64,000 nucleotides of DNA, taken from the NCBI RefSeq assembly GCF_025628895.1, contig NZ_JAOTJC010000002.1, positions 1 to 64,000 of the forward strand, in the 5' to 3' direction. Positions 1-17,464 of this stretch are shown here, piece by piece. The notes beneath the pieces were generated by a model. It ran no database searches. It saw only the letters and a list, made by a program, of their open reading frames with translations, and was not told the DNA's origin. A program made the translations under genes and the position numbers. The stretch comes from Alteromonas salexigens. GTDB lineage: Bacteria; Pseudomonadota; Gammaproteobacteria; Enterobacterales; Alteromonadaceae. Numbering within the stretch: the stretch's first letter is position 1; the number at the start of each line of letters is the position of its first letter.

Positions 1-72
1 GGTATGGATTTAAAACACCTTGGGAGATGAAGAATGATTATGCGTGATCAATGTTGCACTTGGGAGTTGATA

Positions 73-576
73 CTAAGTGCCATTGCTAAATTTTACCTTT
101 TCTGCCAATAAAGGAGACCAAGGAATGAATAGTGGACGACTGTCTTTGCTATCTTCAATCTCTAGCTTTGCTACTTCGTGCCCCAAGCATTGGAGTATTT
201 CTATATCAATTATTTTCCCCAATTCGACTGACCTAAAATGTCTAGACCGCCCGAACAACAAATTATCTCCATCTATCCTAGCAGAGCATGATAGAAACTT
301 ATTTTCAAAAGGAACTGCTCCAATTGCATATTCCGACTGATAAAAATATGAATTTTTGATGCTTTTTCCGAAACAGTCTAAGAATTTTGAGTGATGTCGC
401 CTATAGCGATATATTCTCAAAAAGAACGTAACTCCAACAGCCAAGAAAGATAGAAAAACTGATAACCACAGATTTACGCCCATAAAAACTAAGCCAACTA
501 GTACACAAAAAGCAGGCAATACGAAAAGGGCCAATGAATGCGCGACTCTTTTGTGTTTGGGGAAATTTATGTCCAT
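73..576 (-). CDS. Integron cassette gene: unknown two-helix membrane protein
   Basis: I do not recognise this 167-residue protein. Residues about 13-31 and 34-53 are two hydrophobic segments separated by a very short turn, followed by a basic stretch (RIYRYRRHH) that should face the cytoplasm. The remaining ~110 residues are soluble and beta-rich by eye; a segment near GRSRHFRSVELGKIIDIEI looks loosely like a bacterial PH-type domain, which is only a guess. The ATG lies 15 bases inside the neighbouring attC site and has an AAGGA ribosome site just upstream, the typical arrangement of a gene in an integron cassette. It reads away from the integrase, as cassette genes normally do. The region is AT-rich compared with the core genes. 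Its own attC should lie to the left of position 73 and is not clearly contained in the window. Confidence 0.7.
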   Translation of the reverse strand: MDINFPKHKRVAHSLALFVLPAFCVLVGLVFMGVNLWLSVFLSFLAVGVTFFLRIYRYRRHHSKFLDCFGKSIKNSYFYQSEYAIGAVPFENKFLSCSARIDGDNLLFGRSRHFRSVELGKIIDIEILQCLGHEVAKLEIEDSKDSRPLFIPWSPLLAEKVKFSNGT

Positions 577-590
577 TACATCCTTATGGC

Positions 591-705
591 ATATAACACC
601 CGCATAACGGGCAAAAATACGTAGGCTACAATACCAAGCGAAGCGAGGGAGCCTACGTATTTTTGTCCCCAGCGAGCGCAGCGAGTGTTAATGCGTTTGT
701 TAGGT
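591..705 (-). other. attC recombination site of integron cassette 1
   Basis: On the minus strand the site starts with ACCTAAC (705-699, R'' box, fitting RYYYAAC) and ends with GTTATAT (597-591, R' box, one mismatch to GTTRRRY). Inside, CGCATTAA (695-688, L'') pairs with TTATGCG (607-601, L') leaving one unpaired base in L'', as expected for the extrahelical base that directs strand choice. A perfect 15-bp stem (613-627 with 650-664) closes the 22-base variable terminal region. The length of 115 bases is within the known attC range. The site directly follows the stop codon of the 723-1004 gene. Everything here is seen in the sequence; only recombination activity is inferred. Confidence 0.92.
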
Positions 706-722
706 GGAAAAGTAAACACAAC

Positions 723-1004
723 CTAGGGTTGGATTAGCAGTGAATTGCCGCATTTTTTACACCGAAGCTCTACATACATTAAAAGTTTGGTGTAAATACC
801 ACAGACCGAAGCGACAATGCCTGCAATGAACACCTGCAAGATTGAAGGAGCAAAGAGCACTAAGGACAAAAATGCAATGGCATAAAAGATTAGTGCAATT
901 GAAAGAAGCGCATTCCATATGTTTTTTGAAAAGACATATTCCGCCTCGTTGTAACAAAGCAAACAGCAAGCGATATCTTTTTTCTTCAATCCAAAGGTAA
1001 ACAT
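723..1004 (-). CDS. Cassette 1 gene: small membrane protein with CxxC motifs at both ends
   Basis: I do not recognise this 93-residue protein. It begins MFTFGLKKKDIACCLLC, so a CxxC pair sits at residues ~14-17. Two hydrophobic helices follow (about 30-51 and 54-75), and a second pair, CKKCG, lies near the C terminus. With two helices, both ends face the same side of the membrane, so the four cysteines could form one zinc-ribbon-like site built from both termini; that is an inference. An upstream TTG would add six residues, but that codon straddles the attI/cassette junction, so ATG at 1004 is preferred. The AGGTGA that can serve as its ribosome site is part of the recombination core itself. 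As first cassette it is in the position usually best expressed. Confidence 0.75.
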   Translation of the reverse strand: MFTFGLKKKDIACCLLCYNEAEYVFSKNIWNALLSIALIFYAIAFLSLVLFAPSILQVFIAGIVASVCGIYTKLLMYVELRCKKCGNSLLIQP

Positions 1005-1013
1005 TCCAGTTTC

Positions 1014-1020
1014 ACCTAAC
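1014..1020 (-). other. attI core site / junction with first cassette
   Basis: The minus strand reads GTTAGGT at 1020-1014, an exact GTTRRRY core, about 265 bases from the integrase start. Recombination cuts between G and TT, so cassette 1 runs from 1019 to 597 (423 bp). The same heptamer occurs at the start of the attC site (699-705 on the plus strand), as expected when a circular cassette has been inserted here. Confidence 0.82.
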
Positions 1021-1282
1021 AATTTACTAGATCCCCAACCGGTCTGATTCCCAAAACCGAAACGGGGTTTTTAGTTTTTATAATAACCAGAGATTACGCG
1101 ATAATTCCCCAATACGAAAGTGAAAAACCATCGTGGGGCTTTCTGCTCATGAACTAAAAACACCAAAACGCCTGAATAATTTTGGTGGTGTACTTTGCTC
1201 ATGGTGAGTACCGAAACCCGGCCAACGGTCAGTATTTTTCGAAAAACTTTGCCGGTAGGCTGCTTTTTATTTTCCACCGCCT
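1021..1282. other. attI region and divergent leader between cassettes and intI
   Basis: This 262-bp stretch holds attI and should contain both the integrase promoter and the cassette promoter Pc. I could not find a convincing -35/-10 pair for either, nor a LexA-type CTGT...ACAG box. A foldable element is visible on the plus strand: CCCC at 1033-1036 and CGGT at 1040-1043 can pair with ACCG at 1056-1059 and GGGG at 1064-1067, followed by TTTTT. It resembles an intrinsic terminator pointing towards intI but has an internal loop, so this is weak. A possible GTG-started ORF on the minus strand (1071-1277) has no ribosome site and is treated as chance. Confidence 0.5.
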
Positions 1283-2251
1283 ATGAAATCTAAGTTTATC
1301 GCTGCTCTCTATGAATACATGATTATGAAGCGCTATGCCAAGCGCACTATTGAGACCTATCTCACCTGGATAGCCGATTACATTCGCTTTCATAATCTAA
1401 CCCACCCTGAGCAGCTAAACGCGACACACGTAGAAGCTTACTTAACCCATCTGGCCATTCGGCGGAAGGCCGCGGCATCTACTCAGGCCACCGCATTGAA
1501 TGCGTTGGTGTTTCTGTACGCCAAGTATCTGGAGCAACCGCTGCCGCAGGAAATGAATTTTATTAATAGCGGGCGCGAGCGTAAATTACCAGTGGTGCTT
1601 ACTCAGCAAGAGGTGAAAGCGTTGTTGGGGCGTGTTAGCCAGCAACATTACCTGGCCGTTGCCATGCTGTATGGCAGTGGACTCAGGCTCATGGAGTGTG
1701 TGCGACTGCGCGTGGGGGATATCGATTTCGATTATAAATGCGTACGCATCTGGTTCGGTAAAGGCGGCAAGCATCGGGTAGCCACCTTGTCAGAGTCGCT
1801 TATTCCGCTGCTGGAAACCCATATTACAAAAGCCACTGAGTTACTGGAGCGCGATGTGCAGGTACCCGCATTCGCCGGTGCCTGGCTACCTGACGGCCTG
1901 CGCAAAAAATACCAGGCCCGTAACCGTAAACTGGAATGGCAGTACCTGTTCCCTTCGCACAAGCTGAGTATCGATCCCGAAAGTAATCAGTTGCGCCGCC
2001 ATCATATCGACGAAAAGCAAATCCAGCGGGCAGTGCGCCGGGCGGCCAATGATGCCGGTATTATCAAGCATGTAACGCCGCATACTCTGCGCCACTCCTT
2101 TGCCACCCACTTGCTACAGTCCGGTGCCGATATCCGTACCGTGCAGGATCAGCTCGGGCATGCCGATGTACGCACAACCCAAATTTATACTCACATACTG
2201 CAACAGGGCGCGCACGGGGTGGTCAGCCCATTATCGAATCTTACTCTTTAG
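1283..2251 (+). CDS. intI: Integron integrase, tyrosine recombinase of the IntI family
   Basis: This 322-residue tyrosine recombinase is full length and appears intact. The N-terminal SAM-like core-binding domain spans about residues 4-90. The catalytic residues are R135 (GSGLRLMECVRLR), H267 and R270 (HTLRHSFATH), H293 (LGHADVRTT) and Y302. An extra segment at about 195-225 (LPDGLRKKYQARNRKLEWQ) between the catalytic boxes is the IntI-specific patch that separates integron integrases from XerC/D; it lets the enzyme bind the extrahelical bases of folded attC sites. It should catalyse attI x attC insertion and attC x attC excision. It is transcribed away from the cassettes, the standard integron layout, with attI directly upstream. 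Chromosomal (sedentary) rather than plasmid origin is inferred from the core genes to the right and the absence of transposon parts or resistance cassettes. Confidence 0.94.
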   Translation: MKSKFIAALYEYMIMKRYAKRTIETYLTWIADYIRFHNLTHPEQLNATHVEAYLTHLAIRRKAAASTQATALNALVFLYAKYLEQPLPQEMNFINSGRERKLPVVLTQQEVKALLGRVSQQHYLAVAMLYGSGLRLMECVRLRVGDIDFDYKCVRIWFGKGGKHRVATLSESLIPLLETHITKATELLERDVQVPAFAGAWLPDGLRKKYQARNRKLEWQYLFPSHKLSIDPESNQLRRHHIDEKQIQRAVRRAANDAGIIKHVTPHTLRHSFATHLLQSGADIRTVQDQLGHADVRTTQIYTHILQQGAHGVVSPLSNLTL

Positions 2252-2302
2252 ATGGCTTGGAGATTAGTATTAACCCTATTCGTTACCGGCCCCGTTATAC
2301 CG

Positions 2303-3220
2303 TCAATTTCTTACTACAAAGGGCAAATTAATTTTTGCTGCATTGACTTCTGAAACCCATAAGTAGTTGCCAACCCGAAGGTCAACGGTCACGTAGCCAT
2401 GATTTCCTGCTCGCATGTGTTCCAACCCGCCCAGAAAATTCACCGGAGCCGGAGCGCGCAACCCACCAACGTTAGTCCAATCCATCCAGAAATAAAGTCT
2501 TTCCAAATCGGGAGTAGACCCCAGTTGGGCCAGATTGAGGTCATAGGGCATAAATCCATCGGGATCTTCGTCAATGTTTATGCGGAATGTATACTTACCC
2601 GGCGGAATTTCGCGGGGGCCGGTTACCCCTGAATTTGTGACTGTTAAGGTATAATCTGCTTTCGGAGGCGATTTAATTAATGGTGATGAGCCCACCTCTA
2701 TTTGCTTAAGCATGCCCATGGCCGTGTGCCATTTACCATCTGGCGCCTTTACGTAACATTCAACCAGATATGTTCCTGGTCGCTGAATATTGAATGTCGC
2801 ACTGGAAGTGCGGCCAGGTGATAATAAACCAACCCCTCCTACCCATGTCATCTGCAGGCCCCATTCGGGAATATTTTGTTCAAAAAAAGGTCCAATATCC
2901 GATTTTGATAATTCACCACCGCGTAAACTTTCCATTAACGTTTCGAAGACAGGGACAACATGCTCAAGTTGGTCTTCGATAGTTTTACCGTCCGCCAAAC
3001 GATACATAGCTACGAAGTGTACTTGATTACCCTTATTGGAAAATGAGAAGGTGTTCCAGCCCATCGATAAGCTATCTGGTGCTTGAATTTCGTATTCTGT
3101 GGTGATGATGGGCACTACATCACCATGTTGTGGGTTGGCAAGGGCGTGGCGACTGGTAAGGGTAAACACCATTAGAAATAACCCAAACACTCCTCCTTTG
3201 ATCAGGCGTAGCGCGTTCAT
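2303..3220 (-). CDS. Secreted cupredoxin-like protein of unknown function
   Basis: The 305-residue product has a clear signal peptide (hydrophobic core to about residue 27, cleavage near HALA/NP). Two similar beta-rich halves follow: about 38-180, ending in a stretch PGTYLVECYVKAPDGKWHT plus AMGM, and about 188-300. The first half has a His in VHFVAMY and a Cys...His...Met order near residues 155-170, reminiscent of a type-1 copper centre, but the Cys-His spacing (9 residues) is longer than in classical plastocyanins and azurins, so copper binding is uncertain. The second half lacks these residues. The ATG is preceded by GGAG. It lies between the integrase and fadA, on the opposite strand to intI, so it is probably the first ordinary chromosomal gene beside the integron. 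Confidence 0.6.
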   Translation of the reverse strand: MNALRLIKGGVFGLFLMVFTLTSRHALANPQHGDVVPIITTEYEIQAPDSLSMGWNTFSFSNKGNQVHFVAMYRLADGKTIEDQLEHVVPVFETLMESLRGGELSKSDIGPFFEQNIPEWGLQMTWVGGVGLLSPGRTSSATFNIQRPGTYLVECYVKAPDGKWHTAMGMLKQIEVGSSPLIKSPPKADYTLTVTNSGVTGPREIPPGKYTFRINIDEDPDGFMPYDLNLAQLGSTPDLERLYFWMDWTNVGGLRAPAPVNFLGGLEHMRAGNHGYVTVDLRVGNYLWVSEVNAAKINLPFVVRN

Positions 3221-3345: not shown

Positions 3346-4527
<1,182 letters not shown>

Positions 4528-6678
4528 TTATGCGAAGTAAGATTTACCGTCGGCGGCCATTTGGCGCACGCCGTCTGTTACCTGGTAAATCGGTCCTAAG
4601 TGAGCGTATTTGTCAGCCATTTCAACAAAGTTCGCTAACCCAATTGTTTCTATCCAGCGGAAAATGCCCCCACGGAACGGCGGGAAGCCTAAACCGTACA
4701 GCAGCGCCATGTCGGCTTCCGAGGCACTGTCTACAATGCCTTCTTCCAGACAACGAATGGCTTCGTTGGCCATGGGCACCATCAGGCGGGCAATAATTTC
4801 GTCTTTGTCAAAATCACGGCTGTCAGCCACATGCGATTGCATCAGACCATATGCATCCTGCGAGGCTTCTTTGGTGGGACGACCGCGCTTGTCGGTGCCG
4901 TATTCGTAAAAGCCTTTGCCGTTTTTCTGGCCCAATCGCTCAGCGTTAAACTGAATAGTGACCGGATCGTTGCCAATTTTCTGCATCCGCTCTGGTATAC
5001 CGTCGGCCATTACACCGGCGGCGTGATCCGCAGTGTCCATGCCGACGACATCAAGCAGGTAGGCAGGGCCCATTGGCCAGCCGAAGTCTTTTTCCATCAC
5101 TTTGTCCACTTTCGCAAAGTCGGCACCGTCGAGTACCAGCTTGCTGAAACCGGCGAAGTAAGGGAATAGCACGCGGTTAACCAGGAACCCCGGGCAATCG
5201 TTCACGACAATCGGGGTCTTGCCCATTTTCAGCGTGGCCGCAACCACTGCCTTGATGGTAGCGTCTGAGGTTTTTTCGCCACGGATAATTTCAACCAGCG
5301 GCATACGGTGAACCGGGTTGAAGAAATGCATGCCACAGAAGCGCTCGGGGTGCTTCAGGTTACCGGCCAGCTGATCGATGGAAATCGTTGAAGTGTTTGA
5401 GCAGATAATGGCATCGTCGGCCACCGTCTCTTCCACTTCTTTTAGCACCATGCCTTTCACTTTCGGATTTTCTACCACAGCTTCAATGACCAGGTCGGCA
5501 TCTTTCAGCGTGGAATATTCCAGTGTGGGAGTAATCGCATTAAGGGTGGAGGCCATTTTCGTCGCGTCGACTTTGCCGCGCTGCATGCCTTTACCCAGAA
5601 TTTTCGCGGCTTCCTTGAGACCCAAATCCAGGGCATCGCGGTTAATGTCTTTCATGACCACAGGTTGGCCTTTAGACGCCGCCTGATAAGCAATACCGCC
5701 GCCCATAATGCCTGCGCCCAGCACGGCGGTCAGGTTGATGGCTTTGTCAGAGGCCTTCGCCTGCTTCTTTCCTTTGCCTTTCACCAGTTGGTCAGACAGG
5801 AAAATACCAATTTGTGCTTTGGCCGCATCGGTTTTGGCCAGTTTCACGAAGCCTTCATTTTCCAGCTTCAGCGCACCGTCGCGATCCAGTCCCGCAGCAT
5901 TCTTCACGGTTTCCACCATCATGTGCGGCGCCGGGTAGTGCTTACCGGCTTTGGCAGCAACCATAGCCTGTGCGGTAGAGAAACTCATGGTGGCTTCGTT
6001 TTTATTCAGTGACAAAGGCGCTTTTTTCGCTGTGCGACGCTTTTCCCTGTCAATTTTGCCGGCGGCAGCATCTTTCAGCATAGCCAGTGCAGCGTCACGC
6101 AATTTATCGGGCGCGACTACAGCATCCACGGCACCTTCCTGCAGCGCCTGCGGGCCTTTGCGATCTTTACCGGTGGTCATCCACTCCAGTGCATTGTCAG
6201 AACCAATCAGACGTGGCAGACGCACCGTGCCACCGAAGCCAGGCATTAGCCCCAGCTTCACTTCTGGCAGACCAATCGACGCCGACGTATCGGCTACCCG
6301 TAAGTCACAAGCCAGGGTCATCTCACACCCGCCACCCAGTGCAAAGCCGTTCACGGCAGCAATGGTAGGGAAGGGTAAGTCTTCAAAGCGGTCGAAAACC
6401 TGGGAGGTTTTGCCTACCCAGCTAAGGATTTCGTCATCGTTCTTGCTGAATAAGTCGGTAAATTCGGTGATGTCGGCGCCCACAATGAATGCAGACTTGC
6501 CACTGCGTACCAGAACGCCTTTCACATCGTCGCGGCCTTTCAGTGCCTGAGTGGCTTCATCCAGCTCGCTTACGGTCTGGCGGTCGAATTTGTTAACCGA
6601 ACCGGCGGCATCAAACACCAGCTCTGCAAATCCGTCGTCAAGCAGGCTGACGGTCAGACTCTTGCCTTCGTATATCAT
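4528..6678 (-). CDS. fadB: Multifunctional fatty acid oxidation protein, alpha subunit
   Basis: FadB combines enoyl-CoA hydratase/isomerase and L-3-hydroxyacyl-CoA dehydrogenase in the aerobic beta-oxidation complex. With the start chosen here the protein has 716 residues. Crotonase domain: E119 ([12 protein letters not shown]) and E139 (GLPEVKLGL) match the two catalytic glutamates of E. coli FadB exactly. Dehydrogenase domain: the NAD-binding GAGIMG lies at 321-326 and the catalytic His in GMHFFNPVH near 451. A longer reading frame opens at 6714, but AAAGGAG sits six bases before the ATG at 6678, and the resulting N terminus ([10 protein letters not shown]) fits the family, so the longer start is rejected. 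A PsrA-like operator lies about 170 bp upstream. Confidence 0.96.
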
Positions 6679-7147
6679 TATCATCTCCTTTGGCATTGGC
6701 CAGGGTGCCAGCACGTATTGCCCGGTGTTGGGTACAAGGTGGAAAGCACGGCATTTCGCCGCCTCATCTCTCCCCGGTTATCTGTGCTGACGCGTTAGGG
6801 TGGATTGATTCTTGTCAAAGCCACACGAAATTTCAATGAAAAATTCAAACAACTGTTTAATTTACGCAAAAGATGGCGGCTTGTGAACATAATTCAAGCT
6901 CGAATTCATCCAGCTACCTAGTATAATGGTAGTTACTCATGGTGATAGCCAATCCTTACAATAACAAACCACCATATAGAGCACAGCGGAAGGCAAGAGG
7001 TTCCGTCAGCAAACTCGGAACGCACACGTTACACTTTTTGTGCAGGTGTCCTTCGGCAGTGAGTTGGCTGCGAGGCGGTACGAAAGTCGCATGCATTTCA
7101 CCCGCATGCTCAGAAGTTATCAGGAATTCTCGGGTAGGATGGCAATA
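6679..7147. other. Divergent fadBA / slt intergenic region
   Basis: These 469 bp separate leftward fadBA from rightward slt. Apart from the PsrA-like box, a TTGACA-like hexamer for the minus strand occurs at 6818-6813, without a good -10 partner. No conserved small gene or RNA was recognised. Confidence 0.5.
6846..6859. promoter_or_regulatory. Putative PsrA operator upstream of fadBA
   Basis: CAAAC-AACT-GTTTA fits the published PsrA consensus (G/C)AAAC-N2-4-GTTT(G/C) except for the last base, inside a longer partial palindrome (ATTCAAAC...GTTTAAT). PsrA, a TetR-type repressor released by long-chain fatty acids, controls fad genes in several gammaproteobacteria including Alteromonadales. The distance of about 170 bp to the fadB start is acceptable for a long leader. 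The assignment is an inference from one site. Confidence 0.4.
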
Positions 7148-9169
7148 ATGGAAGTAGAGGTAAAACAAGCAGGATATATCCGTCGCACAGGCGGGTGGTT
7201 AGTAATGTTATGTTTGGTGGTCGCCGGTCTGGCCGACGCTGCCCCGTTGTTACCGCAAGACGGCAAAGATGCCCAGCGCGAGGCGTTTGTAAGCCTGGAA
7301 AAGGCCATTCATACCACCCCAACCAGCAAGTTTCCCCAGTTAAACAGTCAGTTTGAGGCGCTGGAAGGGTACCCCCTGTACCCCTATTTGGTGCGCCAAC
7401 GGCTGTTACGCCAGCTGAACATTCGTCAGCGCAACGAAGTGGAGCAGTTTTTATCGGCTTACGATGGCGACCCCTTCGTTTATAGTTTCCGCCGGCGCTG
7501 GCTGCAATACCTGGCCGAAAAAGGCCATAAAGAGGCATTTCTTGCCAGCTACCGCGACAATATGGGCGCAGCAATTACCTGCCAGTATCTGGAATATCAG
7601 CTGGAAGAAGCCACCAATCCGGTGTATTGGCTGTCCAAAGTGGATGACATCTGGTTATCCGGGCAATCTCAGCCAAATGAGTGCGACGATTTGTTTGCAC
7701 GGTGGCGCGAGCAGGGCCTGATGACCGATGAAAAACTGCTTACCCGTATTCGTAAAGCGGCAACGGGCGGCAATGTCCGGTTGGTGCCCTACCTGCAAAA
7801 GCGGCTGGCTGACGAAAATTATTACTTAGCCGATCTATGGGAGCAGGTTCGCCGGGCACCGCGGACCGCGCTCAAAAAGTCCCGGTTTCCGCTGACTAAC
7901 AAAGCTGAAGAGGCCCGCATTCTGGCCTACGCGCTGGAACGGCTGGCGTGGCAGTCGGCAGATGACGCCGTGAAAGGGTATTTCTTGTGGCAGCCGAAAG
8001 GTGTTTTCAATGCTGACCAGCTGACAGACATTCACCGCGCCATTGCGTTGAGTATGGCCATTGATAATCACCCTGATGCCCGGGAATGGTTGATGAAAGC
8101 CGACGCGCCTGGCGCCGATGAAGACGTCAAACGCTGGCACGTGGCGTATCTGCTGCGCCAGCAACAGTGGCAGCAGGTGCTCACAGTCATCGGCAATGCG
8201 CCAGACTCGCGCCAGGACGAAGACAACTTTCAGTACTGGCGGGCGCGCAGCTTTGATGCTTTAGGCATGCCTCAGCAGGCCTCGTATTTTTACGAAACGC
8301 TGGCCGGGGAGCGCAGTTTCTACGGCTTCTTGGCCAGTGCTAAACTGGCCAAGAAGCCCTCATTAATGCACCGTCCCACCCCACGGGATCCTAACGCCAT
8401 TGCCGAAATCAGAAATCAGCCGGCGGCGAAACGTGCCTATGAGTTCTTGCAGTTAGGCAGACTCATTGACGCCCGTCGGGAATGGCGCCACCTGCTGTTA
8501 AATCTGGACAGCAGCCGGGTAAAAGATGCGGCTATCCTGGCCAGCGAGTGGGGCTGGTACGATCAGGCCATTGTCAGTTTTGCCCGCAGCGGTTACTGGG
8601 ATGATGTGGAACGGCGCTTCCCGCTGGCCTACGAGCCGGAGTTTTCCTCTGTCGGCAAGACATATAACGTGCCCCGCGCCTTTGCCATGGCGATTGCCCG
8701 CCGGGAAAGCTCGTTTATGTCAGATGCAGTCTCACCGGCAGGTGCTACCGGCCTAATGCAGCTTATGCCGGGCACTGCACAGTATATTGCCGAGCAACGG
8801 GTTAACCGCAAAACCCTGTTTGAACCTGACAAAAATCTCGACTTCGGGGTGCAATATTTGCGCTACCTGATGGATAAGTTGGATGACAACCCGGTGCTGG
8901 TGTCGGCTTCCTACAACGCGGGCTGGCGACGGGTGCTGAAATGGTTGCCGGAAAAGCAGGCATTGCCCACCGACATCTGGATTGAAAATATCCCGTACCG
9001 GGAGACTCGCCATTATGTGAAAGCGGTGCTGGCGTACCGGTATATCTATGAGCAGCAACTTGGCGAACCCTCGGAACTGTTCAATGAGCTGGCCACCCGT
9101 CCTATTCCGGCTGCCACCTCCATCGTCGAGAGCCAGTCTACCGGACAGTTGCAGCTGGCACCGCAATAA
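7148..9169 (+). CDS. slt: Soluble lytic murein transglycosylase (Slt70-like)
   Basis: This periplasmic enzyme cleaves the MurNAc-GlcNAc bond of peptidoglycan and leaves 1,6-anhydro ends. It has 673 residues from the ATG at 7148, which has AGGA eight bases upstream; the frame is open back to 7040, but the extra residues do not look like Slt. A signal peptide follows (GGWLVMLCLVVAGLADA). A long alpha-helical superhelix (the Slt70 ring) fills about residues 40-495. The catalytic domain carries the expected acid, E520 (ARRESSF), then the substrate motifs GATGLMQLMPGTA and SYNAGWRRV. The gene is monocistronic. Released anhydromuropeptides would be imported by an AmpG-type carrier such as the one at 45594-46958. 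Confidence 0.93.
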   Translation: MEVEVKQAGYIRRTGGWLVMLCLVVAGLADAAPLLPQDGKDAQREAFVSLEKAIHTTPTSKFPQLNSQFEALEGYPLYPYLVRQRLLRQLNIRQRNEVEQFLSAYDGDPFVYSFRRRWLQYLAEKGHKEAFLASYRDNMGAAITCQYLEYQLEEATNPVYWLSKVDDIWLSGQSQPNECDDLFARWREQGLMTDEKLLTRIRKAATGGNVRLVPYLQKRLADENYYLADLWEQVRRAPRTALKKSRFPLTNKAEEARILAYALERLAWQSADDAVKGYFLWQPKGVFNADQLTDIHRAIALSMAIDNHPDAREWLMKADAPGADEDVKRWHVAYLLRQQQWQQVLTVIGNAPDSRQDEDNFQYWRARSFDALGMPQQASYFYETLAGERSFYGFLASAKLAKKPSLMHRPTPRDPNAIAEIRNQPAAKRAYEFLQLGRLIDARREWRHLLLNLDSSRVKDAAILASEWGWYDQAIVSFARSGYWDDVERRFPLAYEPEFSSVGKTYNVPRAFAMAIARRESSFMSDAVSPAGATGLMQLMPGTAQYIAEQRVNRKTLFEPDKNLDFGVQYLRYLMDKLDDNPVLVSASYNAGWRRVLKWLPEKQALPTDIWIENIPYRETRHYVKAVLAYRYIYEQQLGEPSELFNELATRPIPAATSIVESQSTGQLQLAPQ

Positions 9170-10777: not shown

Positions 10778-12826
10778 TTATTGCACCGACGCCTGTAAGC
10801 TCTGCTTAACCTCAGGCAGATACTCGCCGCCATGCACTATCTGAATGCTGGCATCGTCAAAATCATCTCCTATCGGTTGAACCCGTCCACCCAGACACTC
10901 ACCCAGAAACGATTCTGCCACTGCGAAAAATGACAGCCGGTTTTCTGGTTTCTGAAAGCCATGGCCTTCATCGGGGTAGAGTACATACGTGACCGGAATA
11001 TCCCGCTCTTTCATGGCTGTCACTATCTGGTCTGATTCAGCCTGCTTCACCCGTGGATCATTGGCGCCCTGCGCAATCAGCAATGGACGCTGTATGTTAT
11101 CTACGTGGGTCAGTGGCGAACGCTCTTTCAGCATCGCCAGCCCTTCCTCGGTATTGGGGTCACCAATAGCATTGTGGAAAACGGTACGAAAACTTTCCCA
11201 GTATGGCGGGATGGACTCAAGTAATGTGACCAAATTAGACGGTCCCACAATATCCACCCCGCAACTAAAGGTGGTCGGCGTAAACGTCATGCCGACCAGT
11301 GTGGCGTAACCGCCAAAGCTGCCACCCATAATGGCTACCTCGTCAGCGCGGGTAATTCCCTTGGCTATCGCCCAGTCTTTAGCATCCAGAATGTCGTTGT
11401 GTATGGCACGAGCCCATTCGTGGTTGCCGGCATTCAAAAAGGCTTTACCGAATCCGGTAGACGACCGGAAATTTACCTGTAGCACGGCGTAGCCACGGTT
11501 ACTCAGCCACTGAGCTATGGCGTCATATCCGAAGCTGTCGCGTCCCCACGGGCCACCATGCACCAGCATTACCAGTGGCGCCGGATGCTCTGCTTTGCCA
11601 TCCTGGTCAGGGTCGGCGGTGAGTGGCAGGGTGAGGTAACTGACCAATTCAAGCCCATCGCGGGCCGGGATCACCACTCCCTGCATTTGCGCAAGCTGAT
11701 GGTTGTCGAGTTGGGGCTGAGTAACAAACAGTTGATCGAGTGTGCCGGTTTGCGTGTCATAGATTTTGTAGACCGGCGAGCGATCACTCTCGTCGACATA
11801 CACAGTCCAGTACCGGTTATCCAGCGTTTGCGCGAGCACTTCGGTGCCGCCGCTCACCTTTTCATTCAGCTGCTGAATCATGGCTGCATAGCGGCGCTCA
11901 ACCGGGTGAAAAACAGGTTGAATGTAATCCAGCACATACGCTACCGGAGCATGGGTTTGCGGGTGCATCAGTACACCGGTAACGTCTACTTTGTCGCTCT
12001 GCGCAATCACCGTGGGGGTGTCCTGGCCGAGGGGGAGGTGGACTAATGCAGCGGTATCACGGTTGCGGCTGTCGAGCATATACACGCCCGTATTGTCGGC
12101 ATCAAAGCCAAGAATCTTTGTGGTCAGTACATCGGGCTGGGGAATGGACAACCAGGTTTTCCACTGCCCGTTGTGCTGAGACAATATTTCGGTACTGCCG
12201 TTGTCCAGCGCCCGCATAGCCAGCCGGACATTCAGGTTATGATCGGCATAGAACTCAGCCACGCCAGGGTTTTCTGCCTCAAGCGTGCGCTTGCCGGTGG
12301 CAAGATCAACGCGATAGGCATCATGCCATCGGGCATCACGATCATTCATACCCACCAGCACCACCCCGGGAACCGTACGGCTCTGGCTGATAAGCTGCGC
12401 CTGCACGCCTGCATAGGGAGTTAAGTCGGTAATCTTTCCGCTGTTGAGATGCACACTGTACAAATGCCAGTTCTCATCGCCGTCCTGATCCTGCATGTAC
12501 AGGACATGTTCGCTGTCCAGCGCCCAGAAATGACTAGGCACGCCCCGATTGCCATCATGGGTAACTGGTTCGGCGCTATTAAAATTGTCACGGTCGCCTA
12601 CCCAAATTTCCATCACCCCGTTTACAGGGGCACGAAAGCTCATTTTCGTTCCATCAGGACTCAGCCGGCCCTGATAGCGGGTGGGGTTGCCGAACAATAC
12701 ATCACGCTCAATGAGCGGGGGGGGTGTTATGTCGTTGGTACTGGTTAGCCGATTATTGTCACTGGCACAGCCAGTGAGCATGGCAGTAAATACCGTGAGT
12801 AAGAATAAATAAAATAGTTGTTTCAT
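10778..12826 (-). CDS. Lipoprotein S9 family prolyl oligopeptidase-like peptidase
   Basis: The 682-residue product has a lipoprotein signal (MKQLFYLFLLTVFTAMLTGC) with lipid-anchored C20, so it should be attached to a membrane in the envelope. A beta-propeller of about seven blades (residues ~35-390) precedes an alpha/beta-hydrolase domain with the catalytic Ser503 (GGSFGGYA), Asp590 (GANDPRV) and His622 (DEGHGF). This is the layout of dipeptidyl aminopeptidases/acylaminoacyl peptidases (peptidase family S9). It probably degrades peptides in the periplasm. The ATG at 12826 is chosen because it gives the signal peptide; the open frame continues to 12913. It stands alone between pepQ and ispB. 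Confidence 0.88.
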   Translation of the reverse strand: MKQLFYLFLLTVFTAMLTGCASDNNRLTSTNDITPPPLIERDVLFGNPTRYQGRLSPDGTKMSFRAPVNGVMEIWVGDRDNFNSAEPVTHDGNRGVPSHFWALDSEHVLYMQDQDGDENWHLYSVHLNSGKITDLTPYAGVQAQLISQSRTVPGVVLVGMNDRDARWHDAYRVDLATGKRTLEAENPGVAEFYADHNLNVRLAMRALDNGSTEILSQHNGQWKTWLSIPQPDVLTTKILGFDADNTGVYMLDSRNRDTAALVHLPLGQDTPTVIAQSDKVDVTGVLMHPQTHAPVAYVLDYIQPVFHPVERRYAAMIQQLNEKVSGGTEVLAQTLDNRYWTVYVDESDRSPVYKIYDTQTGTLDQLFVTQPQLDNHQLAQMQGVVIPARDGLELVSYLTLPLTADPDQDGKAEHPAPLVMLVHGGPWGRDSFGYDAIAQWLSNRGYAVLQVNFRSSTGFGKAFLNAGNHEWARAIHNDILDAKDWAIAKGITRADEVAIMGGSFGGYATLVGMTFTPTTFSCGVDIVGPSNLVTLLESIPPYWESFRTVFHNAIGDPNTEEGLAMLKERSPLTHVDNIQRPLLIAQGANDPRVKQAESDQIVTAMKERDIPVTYVLYPDEGHGFQKPENRLSFFAVAESFLGECLGGRVQPIGDDFDDASIQIVHGGEYLPEVKQSLQASVQ

Positions 12827-17082: not shown

Positions 17083-17313
17083 ATGCATAAGGAAATGGTG
17101 TTGGTTGGCGTGCTGGTGTTGGCCGGCTGCAGCGCTACCCCTCAGCAATTGGTCTACGAAACGGTAGAAAATGCAGCTCAGAAACAACGTGACGACATGG
17201 AGGGGGTTGGCAACATTACCCCCGCCCGTAGCGACCGAAGTAACGGCGAGTATCTTACCGTAGGTTTTATTCAGGCCGCGCTCAATGCGCTGTTCGGTAA
17301 CCGCGAGAGTTAA
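17083..17313 (+). CDS. Small putative lipoprotein of unknown function
   Basis: A 76-residue protein with a short signal and lipobox (MHKEMVLVGVLVLAGC, lipidated C16), leaving a mature part of about 60 residues. It has no recognisable domain; the middle is polar and the C terminus is an amphipathic stretch (GFIQAALNALFG). It starts 22 bases after folA in the same direction, so it is likely the last gene of the obgE-folA transcript. Confidence 0.65.
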   Translation: MHKEMVLVGVLVLAGCSATPQQLVYETVENAAQKQRDDMEGVGNITPARSDRSNGEYLTVGFIQAALNALFGNRES

Positions 17314-17350
17314 GCCATCGGCACGGGTGCGCCCGTCAAAATTCACATGT

Positions 17351-17374
17351 AAAAAAGCCGCGACGACCGCGGCT
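17351..17374 (-). terminator. Terminator of the rpoS transcript
   Basis: AGCCGCG (17356-17362) and CGCGGCT (17368-17374) form the stem. Read leftward it ends in six T, so it stops transcripts coming from rpoS; read rightward it has no T-run. Confidence 0.85.
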
Positions 17375-17464
17375 CAGTAAAGGTAGTAAGCAGGTTCCAT
17401 TTACACAGTTTCCCGCCCGCGCTCATCTAAGCGCGTGCAGTTAACCGCGTGAGTGTAAAACCGG

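Follow-up and report, generated by a model that had tools for sequence, protein, structure and literature searches.

attI copies at integrase-free cassette arrays suggest that one integron integrase acts in trans in Alteromonas

Overview

Comparison of integron sequences across the genus Alteromonas suggests that one integrase probably fills several chromosomal attI platforms in trans. The analysis started from a window of 64,000 bp of Alteromonas salexigens (positions 1 to 64,000 of NZ_JAOTJC010000002.1, here contig C14), and "the window" denotes that whole stretch. In the proposed mechanism, a single IntI, made at C14, would recombine cassettes at its own attI and would do the same in trans at attI copies elsewhere on the chromosome that carry arrays without an intI gene; in this genome, the trans platform would be C9:17516-17702. 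We infer that such orphan attI are real IntI substrates, which may have arisen either by intI loss from complete integrons or by copying of them. A broader proposal, to which we give slightly less than an even chance, is that of a distributed integron: a single integrase gene would serve several attI platforms, each selected as a point of cassette entry and expression, and these platforms would outlive the replacement of integrase lineages and re-adapt to the resident enzyme through L-box changes and conversion by the linked leader.

The integron end in the window

The window carries a full-length intI gene (1283..2251, plus strand), as a first-pass annotation had stated from the sequence. Its product of 322 aa scored 452 bits against TIGR02249 in a profile search (cutoff 265), with a match covering positions 2-315 of 315, and its best solved relative was IntI4 (2a3v; 385 bits over residues 1-320), with 131 bits for XerA and 79 bits for XerD among the other solved structures. 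All three Xer models remained below their cutoffs (XerA, 189.5 for 220; XerD, 163.6 for 329.6; XerC, 154.1 for 335.15). In a tree, the protein clustered with other integron integrases, and the two Xer-like proteins of the same genome, which are partial sequences on long branches, were separate (support 100/99). The grouping with XerC/D that the annotation had named as the outcome speaking against it was thus not observed. The profile span, the match to 2a3v and an LER motif at residue 188 together indicate the extra domain of integron integrases. This intI was the sole match above the TIGR02249 cutoff in the genome. An integron integrase in this genome is ordinary for the family: one was found over the cutoff in 215 of 295 family genomes and in 56 of 59 Alteromonas genomes, and the closest integrases came mostly from Alteromonas species, plus one from Salinimonas. 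No LexA box (CTGT-N8-ACAG, at most one mismatch) was found before window base 10921, and hence no sign of SOS control in that interval; SOS (LexA) control of intI is not universal. Beyond intI lie fadA (3346-4509) and fadB (4528-6714), both on the minus strand (3346..6714), and this flank serves to recognise the intI-linked site in relatives.

On the other side of intI, the minus strand carries attI and a conserved leader (1014..1202). The attI core GTTAGGT was exact at 1020-1014, as annotated, and conforms to GTTRRRY; the crossover lies between 1019 and 1020, and relatives bearing the leader diverge on the cassette side starting at this crossover. The first cassette is 423 bp long, also as annotated (597..1019, minus strand), and contains an ORF (723-1004, about 93 aa) for which no Pfam family scored above its cutoff. 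Its attC (591..705, minus strand), whose last 6 bases are part of cassette 2, folds as the annotation had described and scored 113.6 bits against an attC covariance model, being itself one of the 10 sites from which that model was built. In the alignment of these 10 attC of the genome, 14 of 26 stem pairs were altered on both sides, with pairing kept, in one or more sequences, so that folded stem and covariation both identify an attC in the window. Rfam returned nothing at 591-705 and one chance-level match in window 1-3000. With intI, attI, cassettes and attC in place, the interpretation as the end of a chromosomal integron proved right.

What lies beyond the first cassette agreed less well with the annotation. 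Cassette 2 (77..596, minus strand) is cut at 76/77, and its ORF (73-576, 167 aa) enters the end of a repeated IS-like element (1..76, no strand assigned), which exactly matches the first bases of contig C11 and has a diverged partial copy at C12:395128-395177. As the window begins at base 1 of C14, the contig starts inside this IS-like end truncating cassette 2, and the array cannot be traced leftward; the claim that it continues past the left edge does not hold as stated. The suggestion of a possibly long array is not borne out on C14, which has one whole cassette and one cut. Further attC exist elsewhere in the genome.

A second attI in the same genome

At least 13 attC occur in this draft genome on three contigs, one of them in the window, a lower bound given that 150 of 933 candidates were scored, that other attC types are missed by the model (an example is found in genome G304) and that arrays are cut at contig edges. 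A simple attC scan yielded many chance matches, and the covariance model was used instead. By convention, a superintegron is an array of 20 or more cassettes. A lack of attC-like folds, the other outcome that the annotation had set against itself, did not materialise. Its view of an otherwise ordinary chromosome has to be given up, since there are two more attC groups, on C9 and C11, and the C9 group begins at a second attI without integrase.

Indeed, window 1016-1202, comprising attI and leader, recurs with 91% identity at C9:17516-17702, with a hybrid sensor histidine kinase gene behind it instead of intI. The array at this copy comprises 8 attC (C9:9186-17266) and includes a ParDE toxin-antitoxin cassette. 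No IntI match was found in the 20-kb C9 stretch (L007), which qualifies the array as a CALIN (at least two attC with no intI nearby). From the crossover outwards, the C14 and C9 leaders were identical at 20/20, 38/40, 54/60 and 54/63 positions, then at 29/77, and the first cassettes at the two attI were unrelated (18/60 identical). The first cassette at the C9 attI (L007:17270-17519) has no ORF of at least 80 aa, and part of it (17311-17395) is repeated at 7288-7372 with 73% identity.

On C11, 4 attC were found (L009:802-4852) with no attI seen, and an IS3-like transposase region, recognised by eye, interrupts this group. We considered the C11 array as a continuation of the window array and rejected it: both contigs start with the same IS-like end, and the frame behind it, compared by eye, differs from cassette 2.

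Type-A orphan leaders across the genus

Leaders of the window's type, named type A, were searched for with a model (R2) built from 19 leaders, scoring 44 candidates per genome. With this model, which like a model R1 derives from the same loci under study, a type-A leader was found in 44 of 59 Alteromonas genomes at E <= 0.001. We examined 77 leaders in 39 genomes, that is the strong matches and part of the weak ones. Fourteen were intI-linked, with a full integrase 84-126 bp behind the leader; three were followed by an intI fragment (G301, G318 and G333); 59, in 38 genomes, were orphans; and one at a contig end was not classed. One orphan lies 1.4 kb before a linked intI, while the other 58 had no integrase match within 1.5 kb. 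Almost every genome with a linked leader (13 of 14) also held an orphan. On the cassette side, an attC in the expected orientation was present within 3 kb at 38 of the 59 orphans and one in the wrong orientation at none (0/59); the remaining 21 had no attC within 3 kb on that side, which counts against the trans reading. Outside the genus, a less sensitive search of the 295 family genomes, with 8 candidates scored in each genome listed, matched five genomes of other genera, with best scores of 26-32 bits. In ten genomes, two same-strand leader copies stand about 2-8 kb apart within one site (L186, L194, L198, L175, L176, L180, L182, L183, L184 and L083).

These counts bear on the simplest alternative, namely an ordinary single sedentary integron whose leader happened to be duplicated once, to C9, without further effect. 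Such a view would suit an integrase family as common as this one and the standard anatomy of the window, but we regard it as hardly credible in view of the type-A orphan leaders in 38 genomes, many of which occupy conserved sites and adjoin arrays oriented as expected, and of a second kind of orphan.

Type-B orphans

Other Alteromonas have an integrase 57-59% identical to the window IntI, with a different attI (type B), and further integrase types (C, D and E) occur in a few members of the genus. A type-B attI-region query had matches in 30 of 59 genomes. From those listed, 20 places away from intI were selected, and none of these 20 stretches carried an integrase. An attC in the expected orientation was present at 19 of them, at one only at 4.3 kb, and at the remaining place a contig end lies 282 bases away. 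At one type-B orphan attI (L283, in G337), a single attC in the expected orientation is followed by 11 in the opposite orientation.

The conserved core of type-B orphans measures only about 58-60 bp. At all three multi-locus sites the attI was the better conserved part: median identity was 1.00, 0.87 and 0.89 over the first 60 bp, and 0.88, 0.64 and 0.74 over the next 100 bp. In G327, G337, G304 and G309, the orphan attI was 87-92% identical to the genome's own linked attI and the next 100 bp 57-58% identical; in G333, G315 and G149, the 100 bp beyond the orphan attI were 71-86% identical.

Conserved sites with different first cassettes

When grouped by flanking genes, orphans recurred at the same chromosomal sites. 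One site lies beside a polyribonucleotide nucleotidyltransferase gene (14 genomes), others near an FAD-linked oxidase gene (6 genomes), near an LppC gene (5) and beside a DEAD-box helicase-like gene named by eye (4), and there are other sites too. The intI-linked site with fadA/fadB behind the leader was common to 11 flanks from 10 genomes. Type-A orphans at the same site had similar leaders and flanks, and the first 60 bp of the cassette were in common in none of 122 same-site pairs, or none of 117 usable ones, as five pairs involving locus G327_L183_5618, with a mis-set crossover, were left out. The linked site gave the same picture (0/36 pairs), and a common first cassette was found in one of 48 type-B same-site pairs, hence in one of 165 usable same-site pairs for both attI types together. 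These comparisons are between species and are undated except where cassettes are nearly identical, and a few identities of 0.03-0.17 are artefacts of free end gaps. At one site (V), the attI was no better conserved than the flank, which counts against the trans reading.

According to a second alternative, orphan attI arrays are inactive relics, that is complete integrons that lost intI and whose cassettes were loaded before that loss. The intI fragments behind three leaders and the 21 of 59 type-A orphans without attC within 3 kb are what one would expect of relics, and Xanthomonas CALINs have been tied to lost integron activity in the accessible text of one study (PMC12444791). We nevertheless consider this alternative unlikely, as species with the same integrase-free flank had a common first cassette in 0/117 type-A and 1/48 type-B pairs. 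Because same-site flanks are shared and first cassettes differ, loading seems to have continued after intI loss. A decay of orphan arrays where IntI has been lost was considered for G306 and rejected: the type-A orphan attC there are weak (29-39 bits), and the type-B array reaches 114 bits.

Cassettes shared between arrays of one genome

We then compared arrays inside each genome and measured the ends of shared blocks against attC ends. G304, a draft genome with one intact integrase and one broken copy, has a 361-bp block that serves as the first cassette of an orphan attI and recurs, 100% identical, inside the linked array. This cassette (L286, before the crossover) ends in an attC-like site (83 bases) that belongs to another type and is missed by the model; it has a long inner inverted repeat and, by eye, no evident gene, and the orphan array holds a further copy of most of it (277 bp, 99.6%). 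Since the two copies are 100% identical, the sharing of this first cassette is recent, which further argues against relics loaded before intI loss. In G321, a single-contig genome with one integrase match, a whole cassette of 427 bp (99.8%) occupies the first position at the linked attI and an interior one in an orphan array, and another of 342 bp (99.7%) is interior in both, with block ends coinciding with attC ends. G219 has one cassette (87%) in first place at two orphans, one of type A and the other of type B. A 466-bp block of G319 (98.9%) starts at an orphan crossover but does not reach the attC and so does not represent the transfer of a whole cassette, and in G333 a shared block (95%) is cut by the contig edge. 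The G319 block and, for the G304 cassette, the other attC type and the further partial copy count against the trans reading. The remaining within-genome blocks were mostly interior or more diverged, with a long one in G308, and carry no weight in the argument. Between species, a related cassette ending in TGTAAGTAAATGACGCCTAA takes the first position at six attI copies, which span both types and five species, namely L188 and L296 (G219), L193 (G324), L189 (G329, with the intI side cut by a contig end), L164 (G317) and L302 (G302).

The block boundaries matter for a third alternative, in which the leader is kept as a promoter and not as a recombination site, and cassettes arrive by homologous recombination or gene conversion. 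The type-A leader is conserved as far as about 165 bp from the crossover, possibly a greater length than attI function requires, and this would fit a promoter, as would the transcription of all three Alteromonas cassette regions reported in the sections at hand of an earlier study (PMC4119200) and the G319 block, which falls short of a whole cassette. We judge this alternative improbable, still more so than relics, because the type-B orphan core spans only about 58-60 bp, identity over the next 100 bp being 57-58% in four genomes, and because the G304 and G321 blocks begin and end at cassette boundaries, which homologous exchange would not favour. In the trans reading, the longer leader of the window's attI type may also carry the cassette promoter (Pc) of orphan arrays. 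A consensus promoter scan gave 4 matches, compared with 4.1 in shuffles, and did not locate Pc. A conserved RNA structure in the leader was rejected at the alignment used, as RNAalifold predicted 0 pairs for 68 leaders on the cassette-transcript strand.

Orphan L-boxes and the resident integrase

The L-box and spacer of orphans follow those of the genome's own linked attI, with 19 of 19 letters identical in A. salexigens (G000). For 19 orphans, the own linked (or fragment-linked) leader had a mean rank of 2.84 among 16 and came first for 7, and none of 5000 shuffles of genome labels reached so low a rank, although close species share variants and phylogeny is uncontrolled in this ranking. Two findings count against the trans reading: type-A orphans also occur where the only intact integrase seen is of type B, with a different L-box, and type-B orphans are present in genomes that have an integrase of type A (G256, G278, G308, G319 and G321). 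In G278 (L090, L092), the leader of the orphan at the nucleotidyltransferase site matches the linked leader of the same genome at 91% and looks different from the others at that site, as if it had been converted.

Significance

Cassette arrays without an integrase are widespread, and they are frequently interpreted as remnants. Should many begin at a functional attI open to use by an integrase located elsewhere, these arrays would be active parts of one system. Counts of integron platforms would then change, the way in which the integrase-free Alteromonas regions described in 2014 come to be expressed would find a possible explanation, and the origin of integrase-free arrays could be tested by searching for attI copies. 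Linked and orphan attI in one cell also offer natural pairs for learning what an integrase needs at attI.

Comparison with known systems

Alteromonas arrays resemble the Vibrio cholerae superintegron in having intI, attI, attC with covarying stems, several cassettes without a Pfam family and a toxin-antitoxin cassette (ParDE in the C9 array). They differ from it in that a genome carries several attI platforms, the majority of which, among those examined, lack intI, and in that the attC of A. salexigens, at least 13, are spread over three contigs and do not form a single long array. Like CALINs, the C9 array and many arrays beside the orphan leaders of relatives have attC and no intI nearby; unlike them, they start at an attI matching that of an integrase gene of the genus, and their cassettes differ between species. 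According to the portions of its description available, attI detection by IntegronFinder 2.0 is confined to class 1 (PMC9024848), so an attI at integrase-free arrays would go unseen.

Several published systems come close. In Xanthomonas, CALINs at conserved loci away from intI have been reported, in a paper whose introduction notes that CALINs can be mobilised in trans; the parts of it available to us do not describe attI at those arrays (PMC12444791). In the Shewanella prophage M16-3, a complete integron and a CALIN begin with the same attI, but this is one inactive prophage, for which the text at our disposal describes no turnover, conserved sites or genus-wide pattern (PMC9892861). Other studies, as far as their accessible passages go, deal with CALINs or the loss of integrases and mention no attI at arrays of this kind (PMC9229058, PMC9668308, PMC3607928). 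In the open-access literature, with subscription papers outside the scope, no other attI-bearing integrase-free arrays across a genus were recognised. A further precedent comes from the same genus: a three-region Alteromonas integron was described in 2014, with attC arrays, which are transcribed, at two further integrase-free chromosomal regions (PMC4119200). That system shares with ours the integrase-free attC arrays at further chromosomal regions, whereas its attI was described, in the sections available, only within the integrase region and without a trans mechanism. Integrase-free arrays of Alteromonas have thus been known since 2014, and the attI found here at the start of such arrays is new relative to those sections of that report.
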